DNA of 64,000 bases from Pseudanabaena sp. PCC 7367 (lineage in GTDB: Bacteria > Cyanobacteriota > Cyanobacteriia > Pseudanabaenales > Pseudanabaenaceae): positions 4,226,001-4,290,000 of the forward strand of contig NC_019701.1 of the NCBI RefSeq assembly GCF_000317065.1. The letters run 5' to 3'. Positions within the stretch are counted from its first letter, which is position 1; every line of letters begins with the position of its first letter. Positions 1 to 15,098 of this stretch are shown one piece after another. The notes under the pieces were generated by a model. It had not been told where the DNA came from, searched no databases, and saw only the letters and a program-made list of their open reading frames with translations. Position numbers and translations under genes: made by a program.

Positions 1-303
1 CGATCGGAATGACTTTAGCTAAAACAAACTAAACCAAAGCTGGCTCTTGCTTTGTCATAACTCTAGTTCTGTTTAAGGAGCCTGATCAGAAATGGGATCA
101 GGTTAATAAAAGGTTATGCATGAGACTTGGGGGATTCCACTTTTGTTTACTTTGTCTGCACTATTACTACCCGACTTCTCCACCTTTCAAGACCAAGCTT
201 TTCCACTTTTGTTGTTTAGACTGCTATTAGTCAGAATATAGGGGCAAATAAATGATTTTTCCCTGATGTTCTTGCTTGGGTAGCCCTAGATGATTTGCCA
301 ACC
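1..303. other. Upstream spacer with one hairpin
   Basis: No gene is visible in this stretch. It holds an inverted repeat (CCTGATC at 81-87, GATCAGG at 96-102, 8-base loop) that could end a transcript entering from the left, although no T-run follows it. The rest is AT-rich leader for the first glycosyltransferase gene. Confidence 0.5.
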
Positions 304-1620
304 ATGACTATTACACCAATTAACACAAAAGATGCTGGGTTTATCGATCGCCCTGTCAGTAGTATAGCTACTGTCGCGCCATTGATTGTTAATCCCGATC
401 GGCCTGAAGCTATTCCCACTAAGCGAATTCTGCGTAATCCGGTCACTGCCATGGAGTTTGAGCAGCAAGTTACAACTATTATGCAATGGGCCGAATCACG
501 CCAGAGCAAGGCGGTCTGTGTTGCCAATGTGCATATGCTGATGGAAGCATATTGGCGGCCGGAGTTTGCAGCGGTGTTGCGCAAGGCTGAGTTGGTTACC
601 CCGGATGGAATGCCATTGGTGTGGATGTTGCGGCAACTGGGGATGAAAACGCAGGATCGGGTGGCGGGAATGGATATATTTCATGCCCTCTGTGAGCGAT
701 CGCGCCAACAAAACCTGAATATTTTCTTCGTTGGTTCGACTCCTCAAATCCTAGACTCAATGGGAGCCAAGTTAGCTCAGCAATACCCTGGGTTGAATGT
801 AGTAGGGATGGAGTCACTGCCCTTTAGGCCACTAACGGAGCAAGAAGATCAAGAACTAATTGCCAAGATTGAATCGAGTCAGGCTAATTTAGTCATGGTG
901 GCATTGGGTTGCCCTAAGCAAGAATATTGGATTGCCCAGCATAAAGATAAGATCAATGCGGTCATGATTGGTCTGGGTGCGGTCTTTGCAGTCTATGCCG
1001 GAGTCCATAAACATGCCCCTAAATGGGTGCAAAAGTCTGGACTAGAGTGGTCATATCGATTGATGCAAGAGCCCCGTCGCCTGTTTGGTCGCTACAGCAG
1101 CACGATCCCACCATTTGTCTGGCTGGCGGTGAAACAGTTACTAACTGAGTCAATCGGCGATCGTCGTCGGGATGCATATTTTGAATCTTCGACTGTCAAG
1201 CATTCCGCGCCAGTCATGCCTGCGATCGAGGCTTTGGGTGAACAGATCGAGCAGGCAGCAATGATTGGTGAAATTCTGGTTAAGCATAGGATAATCACCA
1301 AAACTCACCTGGCTCAGGCATTACAGCAACAACAACAAACCGGCCAGAAGCTGGGTGAAATCCTGATTCAGAATCAATTGGTTTCTGCGCTAGAACTTGA
1401 AAAAAGCTTAAAAAATCAATCGATCAAACTTGGGCAATTGCTGGTTCGCAATCAGATTATTTCGCAAGAATTATTAGAGCAAACCTTGCAAAAACAAAAG
1501 CGCAGCCATGCCAAATTGGGTGAATGTTTGCTTCAGCAGGGGGTTGTTGCCCCTGAGCAGCTTGAGAATATTCTGCTTGAGCAATGCTGGCGACGCAAAG
1601 GAGTCTGGATGGTTGCTTAG
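304..1620 (+). CDS. WecG/TagA/CpsF glycosyltransferase with C-terminal MshEN-like repeats
   Basis: Residues about 40-250 match the WecG/TagA/CpsF family (GT26), which transfers a sugar (N-acetylmannosamine or a relative) onto a lipid-linked precursor at the inner face of the plasma membrane. The conserved asparagine-histidine stretch and the T-P-D-G motif (D101) are present. Residues 320-427 form four 24-residue repeats with Gly at position 3, Leu at 6, 17 and 21 and Gln at 24, spaced 5, 2 and 5 residues. This is the pattern of the MshEN/GspE-N cyclic-di-GMP domain. Family members normally end after the transferase domain, so the tail is an addition. The start is ATG 304; a TTG at 295 is in frame but less likely. 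It is the first gene of a + strand polysaccharide cluster, 140 bp before the priming-transferase fusion. The transferase call is secure; nucleotide binding by the tail is inference. Confidence 0.85.
   Translation: MTITPINTKDAGFIDRPVSSIATVAPLIVNPDRPEAIPTKRILRNPVTAMEFEQQVTTIMQWAESRQSKAVCVANVHMLMEAYWRPEFAAVLRKAELVTPDGMPLVWMLRQLGMKTQDRVAGMDIFHALCERSRQQNLNIFFVGSTPQILDSMGAKLAQQYPGLNVVGMESLPFRPLTEQEDQELIAKIESSQANLVMVALGCPKQEYWIAQHKDKINAVMIGLGAVFAVYAGVHKHAPKWVQKSGLEWSYRLMQEPRRLFGRYSSTIPPFVWLAVKQLLTESIGDRRRDAYFESSTVKHSAPVMPAIEALGEQIEQAAMIGEILVKHRIITKTHLAQALQQQQQTGQKLGEILIQNQLVSALELEKSLKNQSIKLGQLLVRNQIISQELLEQTLQKQKRSHAKLGECLLQQGVVAPEQLENILLEQCWRRKGVWMVA
1261..1584 (+). repeat. Four MshEN-like 24-residue repeats (coding)
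   Basis: The copies are at 1261-1332, 1348-1419, 1426-1497 and 1513-1584. Spacers of 5, 2 and 5 codons suggest two complete two-motif domains. Gly3, Leu6, Leu17, Leu21 and Gln24 are kept in all four. Position 1 is Met, Lys, Lys, Lys instead of Arg, and the Gly at position 10 survives only in the last copy, so the fold is better supported than ligand binding. Confidence 0.75.
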
Positions 1621-1760: not shown

Positions 1761-3992
1761 ATGATTTTGGTCACCTTAGGTTCTAGTCAATATCCATGTA
1801 AGTCCTTGCTGAGCTGGTTGGAGCTGCTGATTCGCTATGAGTTGATCGATGAGAAAATCTTGGTTAATACCCCTGGCAACATATTGCCAAACCCCACAAT
1901 CAAGTCTCAGCATTTACAGGCTATCTCCCTGACGACTCAGAAGCTACAGGAAAAAATTGCACAAGCTAGGGTGGTAATTGGTGATTGTAGTGAATATTGC
2001 ATCGATCTACTAGAGAACTCCGGTCGCCCATTTGCGCTAGTGCCACTCAACCCAAGCTGTGGTGAAGTGGATGACGATCGACAATTTGAAATAGCTGAAA
2101 CCCTTGAACAACAAGGATTTACGATCGCCCGATCGCCATTGGAGTTGGTTAAGTTTCTAGCGGCAGCCGATTTTGCCAAATTCCTGGATTTGCTGGGTAA
2201 GCCTGAGCCCGATCAAGTTGATCCAAAGGTGGTTAAGTTCTTGCTTGCCTCTGGTTTTAGTAAGTTTCTTTATGCGCGCGGCATGTCGCGGTTGAGTGAT
2301 CTGGCAGATCTTAAAAATACTGAGCCGCCAGAGCCACCGTCCCGATTGGCTAATTTAGTTAATTATCTAGGCGATCGGGTTGTGGCCAAAAAAGTAATGC
2401 TGGTGTGCTCCGCTGGTAATAGCTTTAAAACCATGCAAAGTCTGAATGCAGTTTGGCAAGATTGCGCCAAAACCAGTTGGGTCACCCCCGCCACCTCGAT
2501 CGCTAAAGTGGTCACTCGCCATCAGGATACCTATTGGGGACACACACCCAATCGCCGCCAACCGATCAACTGGTGCCGCAATACCTGGCTGGCGATCAAG
2601 GCTTTACATCAACAAAAGCCCGATTTGGTTTTTTCCACTGGGGGCGGTTTAGCCATTCCTTTTCTGCTTGTGGCCAAGTTTATTTATGGTTGCCAAACGG
2701 TATTTCTAGAAGCCAGCACCAGAGCTAAGGTGCTCAGTTTTCCGGCGCGATTGCTCAATCGTCTCAATGCCCTCGATCGCCTGTTTGTCCAAGATCATGC
2801 GCTGGCAATGCGCTATCTCGAACAACCAAGCCCAAATATTGACTATGCGGCCAATGGGGCTGAAGTTGCTGAACCCGCTCAATCAGACAGTAAGAATTCC
2901 TCATCGCAAACCAGCCCACTTACGGTTTTTTGTTTCCGCGACACCGTATTTATCAGCACACCTACGCACCTGACCTCGGCGGAAGCGGCTCAGTTCCGTA
3001 ATCACATTGGCGAAATCTGCCAGACCAGCTTTAGCAAAATTGTCGTGGATATGAGCCAAACCGAGTCGATCGATGGTTCTGGAGTTGGTGCCCTGATTGG
3101 CGTACTCAAAATTGCCAATGCAACTGGTAGCGAAATGGTGTTATGGAGTGTGAATAAAGCGGTGATGTCGGCTTTGGCGATCGCTAAGCTGGTGCGACTG
3201 TTTACGATCCGTGCGGCCACGCAGATATTTAGGATTGAACCAATCACCCAGATTGTGCACCATTGCCCAATCGCCCTCCAGGAGCATCCCCAACCGACGC
3301 TCCATCCATCAGTGCTCAGTCCTACCAAACGGGCGATCGATGTGGCCGGAGCCCTGGTGGGATTAGCTATTACCGCAATGATATTTATCCCCGTGAGTAT
3401 CGCAATCTGGCTGGATGATCCTGGCCCAATTTTGTTTAGTCAGGTGCGCTGTGGTTTGATGGGGCGACCATTTCGGATTTGGAAATTCCGGACAATGGTC
3501 ACCAATGCGGAGGCGCTCAAAAGTCAGGTCAAAAATCAATATGCCAATGATGCCTTTTTTAAGAGTGACCATGATCCGCGTATTACCAGGATCGGTCGTT
3601 TTTTGCGAAAAACCAGCCTGGATGAATTGCCCCAATTCTGGAATGTGTTGAGCGGGGATATGAGCCTGGTAGGAACAAGGCCGCCCACCAAAGATGAGGT
3701 GGAAAAGTATAAATTAGAGCTATTAAAATGCGATCTTCCTGCGCCTGTAGGCAAGGTGAATTTGGCCACGATGACATTCCCAGCAACGATCGCTACCGAG
3801 TGGAGTCGGCTAGACGTTACCCCTGGTCTGACTGGAGAATGGCAGGTAAATGGGCGATCGAGCGTGCGTAAGTTTGAAGATGTGGTTAAGCTCGATTTGA
3901 ACTATCAGCAAAAATGGAGCTTGCATTACGACCTATGGCTGATCCTCAAAACTATATTTGTACTCTTTAATAAAAAGAATCAGGCAGTCTAA
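1761..3992 (+). CDS. Fused PssE/Alg13 - PssD/Alg14 - STAS - priming sugar transferase
   Basis: This one polypeptide of 743 residues appears to hold four modules. Residues 1-165 resemble PssE/Alg13 (GT28 C-terminal type, starting M-I-L-V-T-L-G). Residues 210-365 resemble PssD/Alg14 (nucleotide-sugar half with V-C-S-A-G-N and S-T-G-G-G). Residues 386-484 are a STAS domain with D438-G439-S440-G441. Residues 523-743 are a polyprenyl-phosphate sugar phosphotransferase (PF02397 type) with K-F-R-T-M and D-E-L-P-Q-F-W-N. The last domain primes the repeat unit on undecaprenyl phosphate; a PssD/PssE pair usually adds the second sugar. In most bacteria these are separate proteins, with PssD before PssE. 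A GAGGG ribosome site at 1746-1750 supports ATG 1761. The STAS insertion hints at control by a partner protein. The fusion is seen directly; sugar specificity is unknown. Confidence 0.85.
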   Translation: MILVTLGSSQYPCKSLLSWLELLIRYELIDEKILVNTPGNILPNPTIKSQHLQAISLTTQKLQEKIAQARVVIGDCSEYCIDLLENSGRPFALVPLNPSCGEVDDDRQFEIAETLEQQGFTIARSPLELVKFLAAADFAKFLDLLGKPEPDQVDPKVVKFLLASGFSKFLYARGMSRLSDLADLKNTEPPEPPSRLANLVNYLGDRVVAKKVMLVCSAGNSFKTMQSLNAVWQDCAKTSWVTPATSIAKVVTRHQDTYWGHTPNRRQPINWCRNTWLAIKALHQQKPDLVFSTGGGLAIPFLLVAKFIYGCQTVFLEASTRAKVLSFPARLLNRLNALDRLFVQDHALAMRYLEQPSPNIDYAANGAEVAEPAQSDSKNSSSQTSPLTVFCFRDTVFISTPTHLTSAEAAQFRNHIGEICQTSFSKIVVDMSQTESIDGSGVGALIGVLKIANATGSEMVLWSVNKAVMSALAIAKLVRLFTIRAATQIFRIEPITQIVHHCPIALQEHPQPTLHPSVLSPTKRAIDVAGALVGLAITAMIFIPVSIAIWLDDPGPILFSQVRCGLMGRPFRIWKFRTMVTNAEALKSQVKNQYANDAFFKSDHDPRITRIGRFLRKTSLDELPQFWNVLSGDMSLVGTRPPTKDEVEKYKLELLKCDLPAPVGKVNLATMTFPATIATEWSRLDVTPGLTGEWQVNGRSSVRKFEDVVKLDLNYQQKWSLHYDLWLILKTIFVLFNKKNQAV

Positions 3993-4446: not shown

Positions 4447-6654
4447 ATGAACGGCAAACCTGATTACCCGATCAAAGTTGAAGAAGGGGGGCTAGATCTA
4501 AATCGGAGTTTCCAGGCTCTCAAGCGTCGCGCTGTTTTAATAATTTGTCTTAGCGGCTTTTTTGCGGGTGCAGCGGTTTTTAAAGCTCTGAGTAAGGATA
4601 CTAGCTATAGGGCTGAGTTTGAAGTTCTGGTGCAATCGGCTACCCCGGAATCTAATATTGTCTCAACGATTACCGACGAGACTAATCCCAACGCATCTGC
4701 AGCCGAAGAAATTGACTTTACTACAATCAGAGTGCTGACCAGCCCCAGTGTGATGACACCGATCGTCGAGGAAATCCGCCAAACCTATGCTGGTCTGAGC
4801 TATTCTTCGCTCGCAAATCGCCTGAATGTCGATCACATTTCTGGTAGTAAAGATATTTTGCGCGTTTCCTACCGCTCCCGTAATCCAGAAGAAGTTGTTT
4901 TTGTGTTAGAAACGATCGCCCAGTCCTATCTTGATTACAGCCTGCAGGTAAACAAGCGGGACGTGGATCAAGGTAGTGCATTCATTGAAGCACAACTGCC
5001 AGTGCTGCGACAAAGAACCGAGTTGCTCCAGGAACAGTTGCAGGAATTACGGCAGGAGTTTAACTTCATTGACCCTACTGAAGAAGGACAGCTTCTGAGC
5101 GACCAGACTGGGGATTTTCGGAAGCAGCAGCTTGAGGCGGAGCTGGAATTAAATGTGGCGCGATCGCTGCTGGCGGATTTAAATTTTCAACTGGCCAATG
5201 CTGCCGCAGATTCGATTGTAATTGCCGATCTAAGTGATAACGATCGTTATGACAAGATCCTCGATGAATTATTAGCGGTCAAACTACAAACGGCTCAGGA
5301 GACAGTGCGGTTTGTCCCTGGCAGCCCAAACATAGACACCCTGGACGTGGAGCGTAATAATCTTCAGCCCATTTTGCGCCAGGAAGCGGAACTAGTTCGA
5401 GATGAGATCGCCAATAAAATCTTGGCGCTTGAAAGCCGCAATGCCTATCTAGATCAAGCCATAGAAACCTTGAATCAAAAGATCCGCCAACTTTCCCAGG
5501 TCGATCGTCAATATACCAACATTACCAATGAACTAGAGATCGCTACCAATAATCTAAATCAGTTTTTGACTGCCCGTGAAGCGCTCAAAATCGATTCGGC
5601 ACAACGGCAGATCCCCTGGCAAATCCTAACCCCGCCTACCGATCCAGAACCAGTGGGCAAAGGGATAGCTAGAAATTTGGTGGTGGGTTTGATGTTTGGC
5701 ATGTTGTTGGGGACTGGTATTGCCCTGCTGCTCGATCGCCTCACTGATGTTTTATATACTGCCGAAGAGGTCAAAAGTATTACTGGTTTTCCCTTGTTGG
5801 GCATGATTCCAGCCGAAGCAACCCTGGAGCAGCAGCCTAAATCTTTAAACGGTTCACGCCTGGCCAATCAGTTTCATCAGTTGGCCGGTCGGCGATCGGG
5901 TGAACTGGATCAAAATCAACATTATGTCTCGTCTTCATTTTTTGAAGCCTTTCGATCGCTCTATGCCAGTTTGTTGCTGCTGAATCCCGACGAACCAATT
6001 CAATCGATCGTGATTACTTCTACAGCGATCGGCGATGGGAAATCAATGTTTTCGGCCTATTTGGGGCAGGCTGCCGCGGCTATGGGTCGGCGCGTGGTGA
6101 TCGTTGATACGGATATGCGTCAGGCGTATTTATATACAGATGGGAATGGCTTCGTAAATAGCAATATGGATTCTGGCATGGCGATCACGCCGAGCAAGCA
6201 AAAAGGATTGACTGATATTATTTCTGCCAATCTTAAGGTGGCACCATTATTACAGCGATCGTCCCTCGAAGAGAATTTATACGTCTTGGCAGCGGGCACG
6301 GCCAATTCCCCCGATCCCACGCGATTGTTGGCCTCGCAAAAGATGGAAGCACTGATGGCCTATCTGGAATCAAAATTTGATCTGGTGATCTATGATGCAC
6401 CACCCCTTTCCTTTGCCGATGCCTATCTGTTGGCTCCCCGCACCGAGGGGATTTTGATGGTAACTAGCCTGGGTAAGCAAAAGCGTTCCGGCCTAGAAGA
6501 AGCACTCGAAAAACTGCGCATATCTGGTGTGCCAGTGCTGGGGATCGTGGCAAACCGCAGTAGTAAACTAACCGCAGACTCACTTGGGGCTGAGACAGAT
6601 CATCGGCTGTTGGCTGATCACAACGCTGATCAAAACAGCAATATGGAGTTCTAA
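4447..6654 (+). CDS. Wzz/BY-kinase polysaccharide co-polymerase
   Basis: A 735-residue Wzc-like protein that sets chain length and drives polymerisation and export of exopolysaccharide at the plasma membrane. An N-terminal transmembrane segment (about 30-48) begins the Wzz domain. It is followed by a long periplasmic coiled-coil region (about 170-380), a second membrane segment (about 415-435) and a cytoplasmic tyrosine-kinase ATPase. Walker A runs S525 to S533 with K532 and has Asp in place of the usual Glu before G-K. The A' motif is V-I-V-D-T-D-M-R and Walker B is L-V-I-Y-D650. The last 60 residues contain no tyrosine, so the autophosphorylated C-terminal cluster of Wzc and CapB is absent. 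Neighbours on both sides are glycosyltransferases on the same strand. No strong ribosome site supports ATG 4447, but the frame and family start fit. Confidence 0.88.
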   Translation: MNGKPDYPIKVEEGGLDLNRSFQALKRRAVLIICLSGFFAGAAVFKALSKDTSYRAEFEVLVQSATPESNIVSTITDETNPNASAAEEIDFTTIRVLTSPSVMTPIVEEIRQTYAGLSYSSLANRLNVDHISGSKDILRVSYRSRNPEEVVFVLETIAQSYLDYSLQVNKRDVDQGSAFIEAQLPVLRQRTELLQEQLQELRQEFNFIDPTEEGQLLSDQTGDFRKQQLEAELELNVARSLLADLNFQLANAAADSIVIADLSDNDRYDKILDELLAVKLQTAQETVRFVPGSPNIDTLDVERNNLQPILRQEAELVRDEIANKILALESRNAYLDQAIETLNQKIRQLSQVDRQYTNITNELEIATNNLNQFLTAREALKIDSAQRQIPWQILTPPTDPEPVGKGIARNLVVGLMFGMLLGTGIALLLDRLTDVLYTAEEVKSITGFPLLGMIPAEATLEQQPKSLNGSRLANQFHQLAGRRSGELDQNQHYVSSSFFEAFRSLYASLLLLNPDEPIQSIVITSTAIGDGKSMFSAYLGQAAAAMGRRVVIVDTDMRQAYLYTDGNGFVNSNMDSGMAITPSKQKGLTDIISANLKVAPLLQRSSLEENLYVLAAGTANSPDPTRLLASQKMEALMAYLESKFDLVIYDAPPLSFADAYLLAPRTEGILMVTSLGKQKRSGLEEALEKLRISGVPVLGIVANRSSKLTADSLGAETDHRLLADHNADQNSNMEF

Positions 6655-6739: not shown

Positions 6740-8005
6740 ATGAAGGTATTAATTTCCGCATATTCATGTGAGCCCGGTCGGGGTTCAGAGCCTGGAGTAG
6801 GTTGGAATGTGGCCGTCGAAGCTGCTAAGCATAACCAGGTTTGGGTCTTAACTCGCCCCGACGAAAGTGGAGACAAGATTGCCGCTGCATTGGCCAAAGA
6901 ACCGATTCCTAATTTGCAATTTGTCTATTTCAACCTGCCCCTGATTGGCTCATTGTGGCGCTTTGGTTCAACGGGGGCGATGCAGGCACATTATTATCTA
7001 TGGCAGATCCAGGCCTATTTTGTGGCCAAACGTTTGCATCAGGAAATCAATTTCGATGTGATTCACCATGTCACGTTTGTGAAATACTCTAATCCCAGCT
7101 TTCTGGCACTACTAGATCTGCCCTTTGTCTGGGGACCAGTGGGGGGTGGTGAATCAGCCCCATCGACCTTTTGGCAAGACTTTGGCTGGCGATCGCGCCT
7201 GTATGAATTGGCCAGAGCCACGGTGCGATCGATCGGTGAACGCGACCCGTTTGTAAAGGTGACCGCGCAACGCAGCGCCGCTGTCCGTGCCACCACCGCC
7301 GACACCGCCGATCGGTTACATCGGATGGGCATTAACCAGGTCGATATCTTGCCGGAAGCCGGGCTAGCCAGCAGCGACATCGATCGCCTGGCAGAGTTTA
7401 CCTTACCTGTTGCTACCCTAGATCAGCCAATCCGGTTTATTAGCATGGGTAGGCTTTTACATTGGAAAGGTTTTTATCTGGCGGTCAGGGCTTTTGCCGC
7501 CGCTAATTTGACCAATGCCGAATATTGGTTATTTGGAGAAGGAACTGACCAACCACGCTTGGAAGCGATGGCAACGGAACTAGGTGTGGCCGATCGAATC
7601 AAGTTCTGGGGCAGGCAGCCGCGCGATCTTACCCTGGCACATCTGGGTCAATGCCATGTGCTGGTGCATCCCAGTTTGCACGATTCCGGCGGCTGGGTTT
7701 GCCTGGAGGCAATGGCAGCGGGGCGACCAGTAATTTGCCTGGATTTGGGTGGCCCTGCGGTTCAGGTCACCCCAGCAACGGGCTGCAAAATTCCTGCCCA
7801 CAATCCAGAACAGGTGGTTCAGGATATGGCGGCGGCAATGGTTAAGCTGGCTAATGATCCAGAGCTGCGATCGCAAATGGGCGAGGCTGGCAAGGCATTG
7901 ATTAAAAGCCACCATAGCTGGGAAATCAAGGGCAAGGAACTAGCGCAATTATATGCAGATGTGGCTAAACAATATCAGGCTAAATCTGGCCAAAACGCTA
8001 GCTAA
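6740..8005 (+). CDS. GT4-type glycosyltransferase
   Basis: A 421-residue retaining glycosyltransferase of GT-B fold, probably adding one sugar to the lipid-linked repeat unit on the cytoplasmic side. The N-terminus (K-V-L-I-S-A-Y-S-C-E-P-G-R-G-S-E-P-G) is typical of GT4 enzymes. The C-terminal nucleotide-sugar domain shows the S-M-G-R-L-L-H-W-K-G stretch and the D-S-G-G-W-V-C-L-E-A-M-A-A-G-R-P loop with the conserved Glu. AGAGGA at 6721-6726 is a plausible, somewhat distant, ribosome site. It follows the BY-kinase gene by 85 bp and precedes a second GT4 gene by 96 bp, which fits a shared transcript. Donor and acceptor cannot be told from sequence. Confidence 0.88.
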   Translation: MKVLISAYSCEPGRGSEPGVGWNVAVEAAKHNQVWVLTRPDESGDKIAAALAKEPIPNLQFVYFNLPLIGSLWRFGSTGAMQAHYYLWQIQAYFVAKRLHQEINFDVIHHVTFVKYSNPSFLALLDLPFVWGPVGGGESAPSTFWQDFGWRSRLYELARATVRSIGERDPFVKVTAQRSAAVRATTADTADRLHRMGINQVDILPEAGLASSDIDRLAEFTLPVATLDQPIRFISMGRLLHWKGFYLAVRAFAAANLTNAEYWLFGEGTDQPRLEAMATELGVADRIKFWGRQPRDLTLAHLGQCHVLVHPSLHDSGGWVCLEAMAAGRPVICLDLGGPAVQVTPATGCKIPAHNPEQVVQDMAAAMVKLANDPELRSQMGEAGKALIKSHHSWEIKGKELAQLYADVAKQYQAKSGQNAS

Positions 8006-8101
8006 ATAATTCGGCCAAGCAAATTAAATAGCTGCAAATTCTGTTAAACAATCTGCCCAAATCAACTAAAAAACGATCCCAACTTTGAGCAAACATCAGC
8101 C

Positions 8102-9298
8102 ATGCGTATTTTAGCTATTCACAATCGCTACAGAATCAGGGGTGGTGAGGAAGAATGTTTGGCGGCGGAAGTGGATTTACTGCGGCAGTATGGCCATGAG
8201 GTTACCCTCTACGAAGACAGCAACGATCGCCTGAACGAATTAAGTACCCTGACCAAGGTAACCAAGGCGATCTGGTCACAGCAAGCCTATCAGGCGGTGC
8301 GAGAAATCCTGCGATCGCAAACCTATCAGGTCGTGCATGTGCATAACTTCCTGTCGTTAATTTCGCCTTCGGTCTACTATGCCGCCAGGGATGAAGGAGT
8401 ACCGGTGGTGCAGACGTTGCATAATTATCGGCTTTTATGCCCCAATGCTTTATTCTTTCGTGATGGCAGAGTATGTGAAGATTGCTTGGGCAAGTTTTTA
8501 CCACTGCCGGGGGTAATTCATGCCTGCTATCGCCAGGATCGCGCAGTTACGGCCATGGTGAGCACAATGCTGGCCGTACATCGGGCGATCGGCACCTGGC
8601 AGCAAATGGTCGATCGCTACATTACCCTGACCGAGTTTACGCGCGCTAAATTCATTGCCGGGGGGCTCCCTGCCGATAAACTCATGGTTAAACCTAATTT
8701 TGTTAATCCCGATCCTGGGATTGGTGCTGGCGATGGTGGCTATATGCTCTATGTGGGGCGGTTGTCGGTTGAAAAAGGACTGGATGTATTGCTGTCGGCC
8801 TGGGAAAAACTGGGCGATCGCATCCCCTTGAAAATCGTTGGTGATGGCCCCCTGGCGACCGATGTGGTGGCGGTAACTCAAACCAACCCGCAGATTGAAT
8901 GGTTAGGGCGATTGCCCATGGCTCAGGTCTATGATCTGATGGGGGCAGCGACTGGCTTAATTATCTCTTCAAAATGGTATGAAACCTTTGGCCGGGTGGC
9001 AGTGGAAGCCTTTGCCAAAGGAACCCCGGTCATTGCCGCCAATCTGGGGGCGATCGCTGAGATCGTCGATGCTGGTCGCACTGGCTTACATTTTCGGGTT
9101 GGTGATTCTGATGATCTGGCGGCCAAAGTGGAGCTATTACTCAGTGATCAGCTCAAATTGCAACAAATGCGCGAGCAGGCCAGAACAGAGTATGTGCAGA
9201 AATACACCGCCGATCGTAATTACCAGGAGCTGATCGCAATTTATAACAGCCTGGCCACAGCGCCTAGTGACGTACAATCTGCTTCGCCATCAGCCTAA
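8102..9298 (+). CDS. GT4-type glycosyltransferase
   Basis: A 398-residue GT-B glycosyltransferase, likely adding a further residue to the exopolysaccharide unit. It begins with R-I-L-A-I-H-N-R-Y and the R-G-G-E-E stretch seen in many capsule GT4 enzymes. The C-terminal half carries Y-V-G-R-L-S-V-E-K-G-L and, near residue 300, the F-G-R-V-A-V-E-A-F-A-K-G-T-P loop that binds the nucleotide-sugar. A C-Y-R and C-E-D-C-L pair near residues 124-140 is typical of a Cys-rich insert in this subgroup. It is in the same direction as its neighbours, and a 540-bp gap follows, so the first transcript may end here. Substrates are unknown. Confidence 0.87.
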   Translation: MRILAIHNRYRIRGGEEECLAAEVDLLRQYGHEVTLYEDSNDRLNELSTLTKVTKAIWSQQAYQAVREILRSQTYQVVHVHNFLSLISPSVYYAARDEGVPVVQTLHNYRLLCPNALFFRDGRVCEDCLGKFLPLPGVIHACYRQDRAVTAMVSTMLAVHRAIGTWQQMVDRYITLTEFTRAKFIAGGLPADKLMVKPNFVNPDPGIGAGDGGYMLYVGRLSVEKGLDVLLSAWEKLGDRIPLKIVGDGPLATDVVAVTQTNPQIEWLGRLPMAQVYDLMGAATGLIISSKWYETFGRVAVEAFAKGTPVIAANLGAIAEIVDAGRTGLHFRVGDSDDLAAKVELLLSDQLKLQQMREQARTEYVQKYTADRNYQELIAIYNSLATAPSDVQSASPSA

Positions 9299-12142: not shown

Positions 12143-13508
12143 TCTAATTTGATCGCTGGTGCTTAATCATCTCTATTATTACTCTTTCGTGCTGTTTCAA
12201 TTGAGATGTTGTGCAAGTTATGACTTAAACACCTCGATCCTGTGGGTATCTATGCCAAAGAAGTTCCTTGAAAATGTACTAGCAATCAGCCTCACTCAGT
12301 ATGGTTGCAAGCGTTGATCTTGTTCCTATTACTTTGCTATTAAGGCGATCTAGTAGAACTCATTTAAGCATACTGAAGATATTGATAGATGAGATAATTG
12401 ATTTTTAAATGAAAAAGTATTAAAATCTAAGAGTAAATAAATCTAGATATTGTTTATGATTAATAGTTTAAATTATTAACCTAATTGTATTTAAGTGAGT
12501 TATTTTAATCGTTTTCGTGGATTTACCAGCCAATTATGATTAAATCTACCCGATCGCTGTTATTAGTTACGCTTTGCTAGCCAAGATTTCGAGGATTTTG
12601 ATTGCGTATGTTCGACTGAACTTGATATGACATGCCCCTGGTAATAACTAATTGATCCGTTAATACTTGCTAGGACTGCGATCTAACGCAATCGAAGTAG
12701 TGACCTACATCAATATTTGCCTGGCGATCGGATGGTAACTTGATAGTACAAACTGGCAAATGGTTATGAACTAGGCTCGTGGGTATTTCCCTTGGGATCG
12801 GGCGGCACAATGCTTTTTCTAGATTATACCAACGCGTTTATGGCAACACTCTGACTAAGGTTGGTAGCTAAATTTATCAGCCAAGTGATTGCAATCATTA
12901 AGTTGAATCATTAGGTTAATGGATACAGCCATGGCGTAAATGCGTAATCATTACATTTCACAATATTGCTTGCCTTTTGCTCCTGGACTGGCAAAATATG
13001 AGATTCGTTTGGCTAATTTAGCTGAGGAAACAAGCTGATTATTTTTATCTCTCACAAGGCTAGAGTTCTTTTCCGATTAGAAATCACTAAATTGAAATCG
13101 CTAAATTAGGGATACCTGCGTTTCTATTTAGTATTAAGTTTAAGCAGAACTTAAGCCTGGATTGATTAATCTAGAAACATTGCCGAGAGTTTAGGGTAAG
13201 CTGAACTACCACCAGTGCCAACTAAATTGGGGACAAAACTGGCGATCGAACTTATGAAGTCAGTCAAATTAGTAGCGATCGCCTCGATTGGCAGGACTGG
13301 CTAAACACATACAAATAACTGCAATTAAACATAATTAAAGACAGAATGGCTAAGGTTTGGTCACTGTCAAACCCTTGCAATACAAACAATATTCAAATGA
13401 TATACAAATAATCCCAAAACCTCAAGAAACGTCAGCTTAACGATCATCATATGTGTAGCCGCTCAGGCTAGATCGACAAGTTATAAATAAGAGAAGACGA
13501 TTCGCACT
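12143..13508. other. 1.4-kb spacer without visible gene
   Basis: No reading frame with coding character, tRNA-like structure or transposon end was seen on either strand. The segment is AT-rich with several HIP1-type sites, so it is native DNA. It separates the polysaccharide run from the response regulator and may hold the regulator's promoter or a small RNA that cannot be recognised by eye. Confidence 0.5.
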
Positions 13509-15098
13509 ATGAGAATCCTACTAGTAGAGGACGATGAGACAGTCTCTGCATTCCTGAATGGGGTGCTAACCCAGGAGAATTATGCTGTAGATATTGCCAC
13601 AAATGCTAATTCCGGGTGGAGATTCGTAGAAAGCCATGATTACAAACTAGTTTTAATCGATTTGACCCTGTCCGATTTTAATGGCATCGATTTTTGCAGC
13701 AACCTACGCCGCAGAGGTCTTTCGATTCCGATTATCCTGCTGGCAAATCCAGATAATTTCGATCGCACCGTAGCGGCTGGATTAGACGCAGGAGCCGACG
13801 ATTGCATCAATAAATCATTTAATTTAAAATCACTGCTGGCCAGGATTCGAGCCTTACTGCGTCGAGCCGAACAGCCATTACCACCAGTATTAGAACTAAG
13901 CGGCATCGGGCTTAACCCCAGTAGCCGAGAAGTTAGTTATGATGGTCAACTGCTCAACCTGACCCAAAAAGAATATGGCTTGTTGAAGCTTTTTATGTCC
14001 GATAGCAAGAGGGTCTTTAGCCGCAGTACTATTTTGGATCAGCTCTGGAATTTAGAAGATCCACCGGACGAAAGCACGATTAAGTCTCATGTGAAGAGCT
14101 TGCGCCAAAAGCTGAAGGCAGCCGGAGCCCCCAAGGATTTAATTAAAACTGTATATGGTGTGGGCTATCGGTTTAAGCCTATTTCCATTGGCAGCGGACA
14201 GGCCAGCAAGTCGCCGCCCCTGCGTAGTTTTGAAGAGAATCAAGCCAAGGTGATGGCGGTGGATGATGATAGCTATCAGCTAGAGCTAATCCAAAAGACA
14301 CTCAAGCCATTGGGGATCGAGCTTACAACCTTAAAAAACCCTTCCCTATTCCTAGAGCGCTTGGAAGAATTCCAACCCGATCTATTGCTCTTAGATATGG
14401 AGAGCCCTAAACAAAGCGGCGTGGAGTTATATCAGGCGGTTCGATCGGAGCCGCGCTGGCAATCGCTCAAAGTGATTTACCTGCTTGACACCAATGATGC
14501 GGTTACCTTGCAAAAGGTCTTTGAAACCGGAGCCCATGACTTTGTGCATAAGCCGATCGAAGAACGCAAGCTGGCTAACTGTGTGATTAATCACCTGGAA
14601 CGATCGCGCACTCTGTCTAACCTGCCTAGTCTCAATCAACCAGCTAGGCCGACTGAAGCAAAGGAATCGATCAAGCTACTCCAAAAGCTCTTTTTGCTAG
14701 CTCAGCGGCAAAAACAACCCCTATGTATTTCGATCGTAGAAATAACAAATTTCCAGCAAATTCGGAGTGAATATGGCTTTGATGCCGAAGATATGGTGAT
14801 TCAGAAAATAGGTAAACAGCTCAAGGGTATGTTTCGAGGCTCTGATGTGGTGGACTACGCTGGCAATGGTGAGTTTTGGGTAGGCATGTATGACATGCAG
14901 CAAGATGGTGGTAACAAGCGGATGCAACATGTAGCAGCTCGGTTATTGCGGACTAGATATACTACTGAAGCAGGAGCAGAAATCAAAGTGAATTTAAACA
15001 CGCGATCGGCTGCTTATCCTGAAGATGGCAACGATCTGCAAACCTTGCTTGACTCGATTCGAGCTGGATTTAAAGTATCTATGGCTGTTATTAACTAA
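13509..15098 (+). CDS. Hybrid response regulator: REC - winged helix - REC - degenerate GGDEF
   Basis: A 529-residue regulator. Residues 1-120 are a receiver domain with D8, D9 and phospho-acceptor D51, but the usual Ser/Thr after strand 4 is Ala and K-P is K-S. Residues 128-222 are an OmpR-type DNA-binding winged helix ending T-V-Y-G-V-G-Y-R-F. Residues 243-365 are a second receiver with the acidic cluster, an L-L-L-L-D acceptor and an intact K-P. Residues 380-529 follow the GGDEF fold, but the signature reads G-N-G-E-F and the upstream metal and substrate residues are changed, so diguanylate cyclase activity is unlikely. No histidine kinase is adjacent. It follows the polysaccharide locus on the same strand after 1.4 kb, so control of that locus is possible but unproven. 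A weak GAGAAG ribosome site precedes ATG 13509. Confidence 0.88.
   Translation: MRILLVEDDETVSAFLNGVLTQENYAVDIATNANSGWRFVESHDYKLVLIDLTLSDFNGIDFCSNLRRRGLSIPIILLANPDNFDRTVAAGLDAGADDCINKSFNLKSLLARIRALLRRAEQPLPPVLELSGIGLNPSSREVSYDGQLLNLTQKEYGLLKLFMSDSKRVFSRSTILDQLWNLEDPPDESTIKSHVKSLRQKLKAAGAPKDLIKTVYGVGYRFKPISIGSGQASKSPPLRSFEENQAKVMAVDDDSYQLELIQKTLKPLGIELTTLKNPSLFLERLEEFQPDLLLLDMESPKQSGVELYQAVRSEPRWQSLKVIYLLDTNDAVTLQKVFETGAHDFVHKPIEERKLANCVINHLERSRTLSNLPSLNQPARPTEAKESIKLLQKLFLLAQRQKQPLCISIVEITNFQQIRSEYGFDAEDMVIQKIGKQLKGMFRGSDVVDYAGNGEFWVGMYDMQQDGGNKRMQHVAARLLRTRYTTEAGAEIKVNLNTRSAAYPEDGNDLQTLLDSIRAGFKVSMAVIN

Follow-up and report, generated by a model that had tools for sequence, protein, structure and literature searches.

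The window analysed here is a stretch of 64,000 nucleotides from the cyanobacterium Pseudanabaena sp. PCC 7367. A preliminary description of its sequence had proposed that the gene at 1761..3992 (+) joins in one chain the two halves of a second-sugar transferase (PssE/Alg13 and PssD/Alg14), a STAS domain, and the priming sugar transferase of polysaccharide synthesis. The first two steps of repeat-unit synthesis would then be coupled, and a kinase or phosphatase might act on the STAS domain. The locus raises the question of whether such a chain is real, which of its modules may still be active in this copy, and how the priming step might be controlled.

Architecture and surroundings of the gene

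The gene starts with ATG, and its frame is unbroken over 743 codons, with zero internal stops. Profile searches over residues 1-743, together with structural models, recovered all four modules in the order PssE, PssD, STAS, and phosphoglycosyl transferase (PGT), as had been proposed, with the PssE match being weak. The full-length AlphaFold2 model has a mean pLDDT of 71 and a pTM of 0.48, and is usable for single domains and not for their relative positions. The C-terminal module is a monotopic PGT (Bac_transf; residues 522-738, 3324..3974 (+)). It matches the Pfam profile PF02397 at 523-736 (1.4e-61, 207.6 bits for a cut-off of 27), and this part of the model matches PglC (8e37/8g1n). The large-PGT profile EPS_sugtrans (TIGR03025) was not reached (253.7 bits for a cut-off of 295.55), and only its C-terminal part is matched. 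The STAS domain (residues 384-487, 2910..3221 (+)) is matched by its Pfam profile at 398-485 (3.6e-12, 46.4 bits for a cut-off of 22.6), and residues 382-487 of the model resemble the STAS proteins TM1442 (Z 16.7) and RsbV (Z 16.1). The PssD/Alg14-like module, corresponding to a GT-B acceptor domain (residues 210-364, 2388..2852 (+)), matches Alg14 of Pfam at 272-353 (4.1e-6, 27.3 bits for a cut-off of 27) and PssD of NCBIfam at 213-352 (2.6e-14, 53.8 bits, under the cut-off of 110), and is similar in fold to the acceptor-side N-domain of MurG (Z 16.5 to 3s2u).

We found 28 chains with these four modules in a single frame. They come from one cyanobacterial family (the window, G004, the genus g4, and G007, where the chain is cut by the contig end) and from one outlier in another family (G054). 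Genomes of the genus g4 often have two four-domain paralogs, A and B (e.g., G014 and G023). A frameshift or an assembly error at the module joins is ruled out by this identical, open architecture. The fusion is thus a real, conserved, and narrowly distributed variant within the known STAS-PGT type.

The assignment of the first module (residues 1-135, 1761..2165 (+)) as a degenerate PssE/Alg13-like GT-B donor (nucleotide-sugar) domain rests on the orthologs, since its own match is weak (NCBIfam PssE at 2-125: 3.8e-4, 20.4 bits, under the cut-off of 120). In type-A orthologs and the outlier (L011, L019, L022) this region reaches 1e-20 to 1e-22, and in a type-B paralog 6e-14; the scores of the orthologs, at 52-80 bits, are likewise under the cut-off of 120. 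We modelled the first 312 residues of the type-A ortholog L019, and obtained confident domain folds (pLDDT 85.5). Its residues 1-135 resemble the domain that binds the nucleotide sugar at the C-terminus of GT-B enzymes (Z 10-12) and its residues 161-312 the N-domain of MurG (Z 15.3). Hence, a GT-B enzyme is present here with its two halves swapped, the donor half first. The pTM of this model (0.59) leaves the PssE and PssD folds usable and the mutual packing of the halves unsettled.

The gene has polysaccharide genes on both sides. Upstream, at 295..1620 (+), is a 441-aa glycosyltransferase of the WecG/TagA type whose C-terminal part bears c-di-GMP-binding repeats of the MshEN type (NF053729, 97.9 bits for a cut-off of 38). 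Downstream, at 4447..6654 (+), is a 735-aa polysaccharide co-polymerase resembling Wzz/BY-kinase proteins, with a CbiA match over its cut-off (7.2e-7) and a Wzz match just under its cut-off (4.3e-5); two GT4 transferases follow further downstream. The window protein itself is a small-type monotopic PGT, which would prime the repeat unit of an exopolysaccharide of the Wzx/Wzy type. Among the matches listed from 386 genomes, the combination of WecG/TagA with MshEN was found besides the window only in G115, where it occurs in two places, one of them with an internal stop. The window that holds this transferase also encodes, at 13491-15095 (+), a protein with two receiver domains, Trans_reg_C, and GGDEF.

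Relatives with fewer domains

A close characterised relative is XssP of Synechocystis PCC 6803 (L082, 11980-12933), which likewise has an N-terminal STAS domain and a C-terminal Bac_transf domain, and is 45% identical to the window protein over the matched region 398-742. It differs in having only these two domains, with the motif DSAA and without PssE and PssD in front. XssP is the priming enzyme of synechan, and its loss abolishes bloom formation and suppresses exopolysaccharide (PMC8205485). We detected the STAS domain of XssP in this analysis; the word STAS is absent from the synechan literature that we searched, including the eLife paper (PMC8205485). In the window protein, as in XssP, the STAS domain would replace the transmembrane bundle and the cytoplasmic domain of large PGTs. 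By description, a further likeness is All4160 of Anabaena PCC 7120, a glycosyltransferase with STAS as its N-terminal domain, involved in the heterocyst envelope polysaccharide (PMC8256260), for which no PssE or PssD is mentioned. A scan of the genome contigs gave a single relative, of the two-domain form.

According to the preliminary description, the first two modules usually occur as two partner proteins and in the reverse order, and the genomes agree. In other families pssD, pssE, and the two-domain STAS-PGT are separate genes, often adjacent; they follow each other in the order pssD, pssE, STAS-PGT at L046, L047, L083-L086, and L090, and pssD precedes pssE at L047, L083-L086, and L090. 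Since these three genes lie side by side there, joining the two halves to the priming enzyme is a reasonable step. Relative to PssD/PssE (Cps14F/Cps14G), both halves are matched in the window protein, but their order is swapped and they are fused to a STAS-PGT. The single-chain WelK has a profile that matches the orthologs in two stretches, with the order swapped (residues 1-130 of L011 match WelK 168-300). The swapped order is not unique, since Entamoeba and Dictyostelium have Alg13-Alg14 fusions in reverse order (PMC8993221), with no STAS or PGT mentioned.

These observations suggest that in one lineage the Alg13/Alg14-type halves, elsewhere encoded by separate neighbouring genes, were put in front of a STAS-PGT in swapped order. 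In a mixture-model tree, 11 four-domain chains form a single clade (support 100/99), whereas FastTree did not recover the four-domain rows as a clade; the long outgroup branches of the mixture-model tree (2.45 and 4.48) mean that it does not polarise fusion against separation. A three-domain form, PssE-STAS-PGT, occurs in G152 (L060/L089). The genus g7 has 470-aa chains with PssE, STAS, and a weakly matching PGT (L049 5053-6474 (-), L050 8424-9833 (+)), possibly a degenerate relative. At L091 5151-7780 (G217), the frames of pssD, pssE, STAS, PGT, and kinase overlap, and STAS and PGT are read in two frames, perhaps because of a frameshift.

A natural protein that unites a priming enzyme with both parts of a second-sugar transferase, as the four-domain chain does, is rare. 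Most orthologs could, in a single chain, both load the first sugar and attach the second. The coupling of the two steps, together with a phospho-switch, is plausible in type-A orthologs.

Motifs kept and lost in the window copy

For the protein of the window itself, both proposals are doubtful, given the glycine at position 439, the lost histidine of the GGH motif, and the substitutions at 14 of 35 conserved PssE positions. The PGT is the module that was spared. In an alignment of 34 relatives, from which XssP (a plasmid record) was left out, the pair D621-E622 (3621..3626 (+)) is invariant and intact in the window protein, as are all other invariant columns of this module. We take this pair to be the Asp-Glu pair of the active site, by analogy with PglC-type PGTs.

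The STAS domain was compared over 102 chains using as alignment marker the SpoIIAA sequence with its phosphorylated residue Ser58. The preliminary description had read D438-G-S440-G as close to the phosphorylated motif of anti-sigma antagonists. The letters of the motif (D438-G439-S440-G441, 3072..3083 (+)) are as it gave them, but the residue aligned with Ser58 is G439, and S440 lies one residue past it, so that S440 does not occupy the phosphorylation site. Serine occupies the Ser58 position in 98 of the 102 chains. The other 4 have glycine, namely three type-B chains (DGAG) and, with DGSG, the window protein.

Set against stand-alone cyanobacterial PssD and PssE, the second-sugar module has diverged in both halves. 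In the acceptor half, G219-N220-S221 (2415..2423 (+)) replaces the conserved G-G-H motif, whose histidine is kept in type-A orthologs. The matching histidine is required in Agl24 and MurG (PMC8993221). In the donor half, residues 75-80 read D-C-S-E-Y-C (1983..2000 (+)) where the donor loop of type A reads H-C-G-E-G-T/S. The window protein departs from the stand-alone PssE proteins at 14 of their 35 conserved positions, including H75 (replaced by Asp) and R96 (replaced by Leu), whereas each of four orthologs does so at 4-7. Type-B paralogs of the genus g4 also deviate, with tyrosine for the GGH histidine and DSAG or DGAG as STAS motif.

Could the window chain nevertheless carry out the first two sugar steps, with phosphorylation of the STAS domain as its switch? 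None of the four modules is missing or interrupted, the type-A orthologs retain GGH, HCGEGT/S, and DSSG, and S440 could serve as an alternative phospho-acceptor. We consider this improbable, given the changes from GGH to GNS and from HCGEGT/S to DCSEYC, the number of altered PssE positions, the glycine at the phosphorylation site, and the need for the matching histidine in Agl24 and MurG. Most likely, the second-sugar activity of the window copy was lost together with these motifs. The genus of the window is represented by one genome, and the losses could be specific to this strain.

The losses might also be read as the decay of a copy on its way to becoming a pseudogene. Conserved positions are lost in three of the four modules and the terminal branch of the window protein is long (0.69). 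However, L011 has intact motifs and a similar branch length (0.59), the frame of the window gene remains open throughout, every invariant PGT column is retained, and the gene lies within an intact polysaccharide cluster, which makes decay a very improbable explanation. We favour instead a copy whose phospho-serine and second-sugar motifs, donor and acceptor alike, have eroded around a retained PGT site, where the inactive second-sugar module would be kept as a scaffold and the STAS domain would be fixed in an unphosphorylatable state. This degenerate copy offers a natural test of which modules the enzyme can do without.

Kinase neighbours and the control of priming

The preliminary description had suggested a kinase/phosphatase partner for the STAS domain. 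This proposal fares differently at the level of the family and at that of the window copy, where Gly439 speaks against it. We searched 386 genomes with a ten-member alignment of RsbW-like kinases, in which E50, N54, D86, and G88 are invariant, and crossed the results with the places of STAS-PGT genes. Among the matches listed, a kinase lies within 4 kb of a STAS-PGT in 39 of 87 genomes, from 13 families, a count that describes these matches and not a phylum-wide rate. The arrangement of the 39 cases is regular, again among the matches listed: 37 are on the same strand, 38 have the kinase downstream, and 27 have the two domains within 150 nt of each other. Adjacency this frequent is far more than chance would give, since these genomes of several megabases have one to four kinases of this kind.

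The genome G092 gives an example. Directly 3' of its STAS-PGT is a 156-aa protein with a HATPase_c_2 match (1.2e-11) that matches RsbW better than any other solved structure, followed by a free STAS protein (DSSG) and then, on the opposite strand, by a receiver-SpoIIE phosphatase. STAS-PGT, RsbW-like kinase, free STAS, and receiver-SpoIIE phosphatase also occur together in the clusters L083-L086 and L088. The adjoining kinases, and the further components of a partner-switch in some STAS-PGT clusters, support the proposed partner as far as the family is concerned. In the wider family, an RsbW-like serine kinase probably docks on the STAS domain and regulates the enzyme. The switch would then act on the first enzyme of the pathway rather than on a sigma factor. 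The contact between kinase and STAS domain is proposed here from genomic context. In the literature searched, which covered few subscription journals, no STAS-PGT was connected with a kinase.

The STAS domain could instead be a purely structural or dimerisation module across the family, not phosphorylated, with the kinases serving other STAS proteins of the clusters. The cytoplasmic domain of large PGTs builds a dimer (PMC12802240), many STAS-PGTs have no adjoining kinase among the matches listed, and the free STAS of several clusters is a more obvious kinase substrate. The motifs bear on this choice in part. DSSG is present in 32 of 32 kinase-adjacent chains (31 two-domain and 1 three-domain), in a set of loci partly picked for an adjacent kinase, but the 102 chains showed no difference in STAS motif between kinase-adjacent and other STAS-PGTs, with serine in both. 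Roughly half of the listed genomes with a STAS-PGT lack an adjoining kinase and still keep the serine, so its conservation alone does not prove phosphorylation. Against a purely structural role stand the DSSG motif, conserved almost throughout, and a kinase lying downstream, mostly within 150 nt, in 13 families among the matches listed. Furthermore, at many kinase-adjacent loci a free STAS was not found within 3.5 kb, a search limited by short flanks. We regard a purely structural STAS domain as unlikely.

The four-domain genes stand apart from these arrangements. A kinase is absent beside them in the 20-kb stretches of G004, G014, G023, and G054 and in the genome search, and no kinase, free STAS, or phosphatase adjoins the four-domain gene in the window or in the relatives examined. 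In the genome of the window, the nearest and single close homolog of the kinase is encoded elsewhere on the chromosome (C2:2641581-2642027), and a free STAS (MDSSGLG) lies next to a receiver-SpoIIE phosphatase near C2:237-239 kb. The same genome has another free STAS (L110, 6141-6512 (+), DSAG), convergent with a 479-aa PGT (7337-8776 (-)).

Taken together, we lean slightly towards a joint reading in which the window copy is a priming enzyme with a locked STAS domain and a dead second-sugar module, within a family controlled by a kinase switch. It is possible, at somewhat less than even chances, that a cyanobacteria-wide switch made of an RsbW/HmpW-like kinase, a free STAS, and a receiver-SpoIIE phosphatase acts on the STAS domain of the primer, that the four-domain lineage added the second-sugar transferase, and that the window copy later lost both.

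Known systems offer partial precedents. In Nostoc punctiforme, the phosphatase HmpU, the STAS protein HmpV, and the kinase HmpW form a partner-switch acting on hormogonium development and motility, with an undefined effector (PMC6495340); by locus tags, hmpU and hmpW are adjacent and hmpV is elsewhere (PMC10581220). The literature searched links no STAS-PGT to the Hmp proteins, and STAS-PGTs are one possible type of target for such systems with STAS output. The start of polysaccharide synthesis has mostly been studied as gene regulation, and direct control of a PGT was reported recently for EpsW-EpsZ of Myxococcus xanthus, where the priming enzyme is the direct target of a signalling protein (PMC12802240). 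That system differs in using a phosphorylated receiver protein and a large PGT, with no STAS domain. The kinase neighbour found in 13 cyanobacterial families is a concrete and testable candidate for direct control of priming. If this holds, a module known for the control of sigma factors would govern the enzyme at the first committed step of polysaccharide synthesis.
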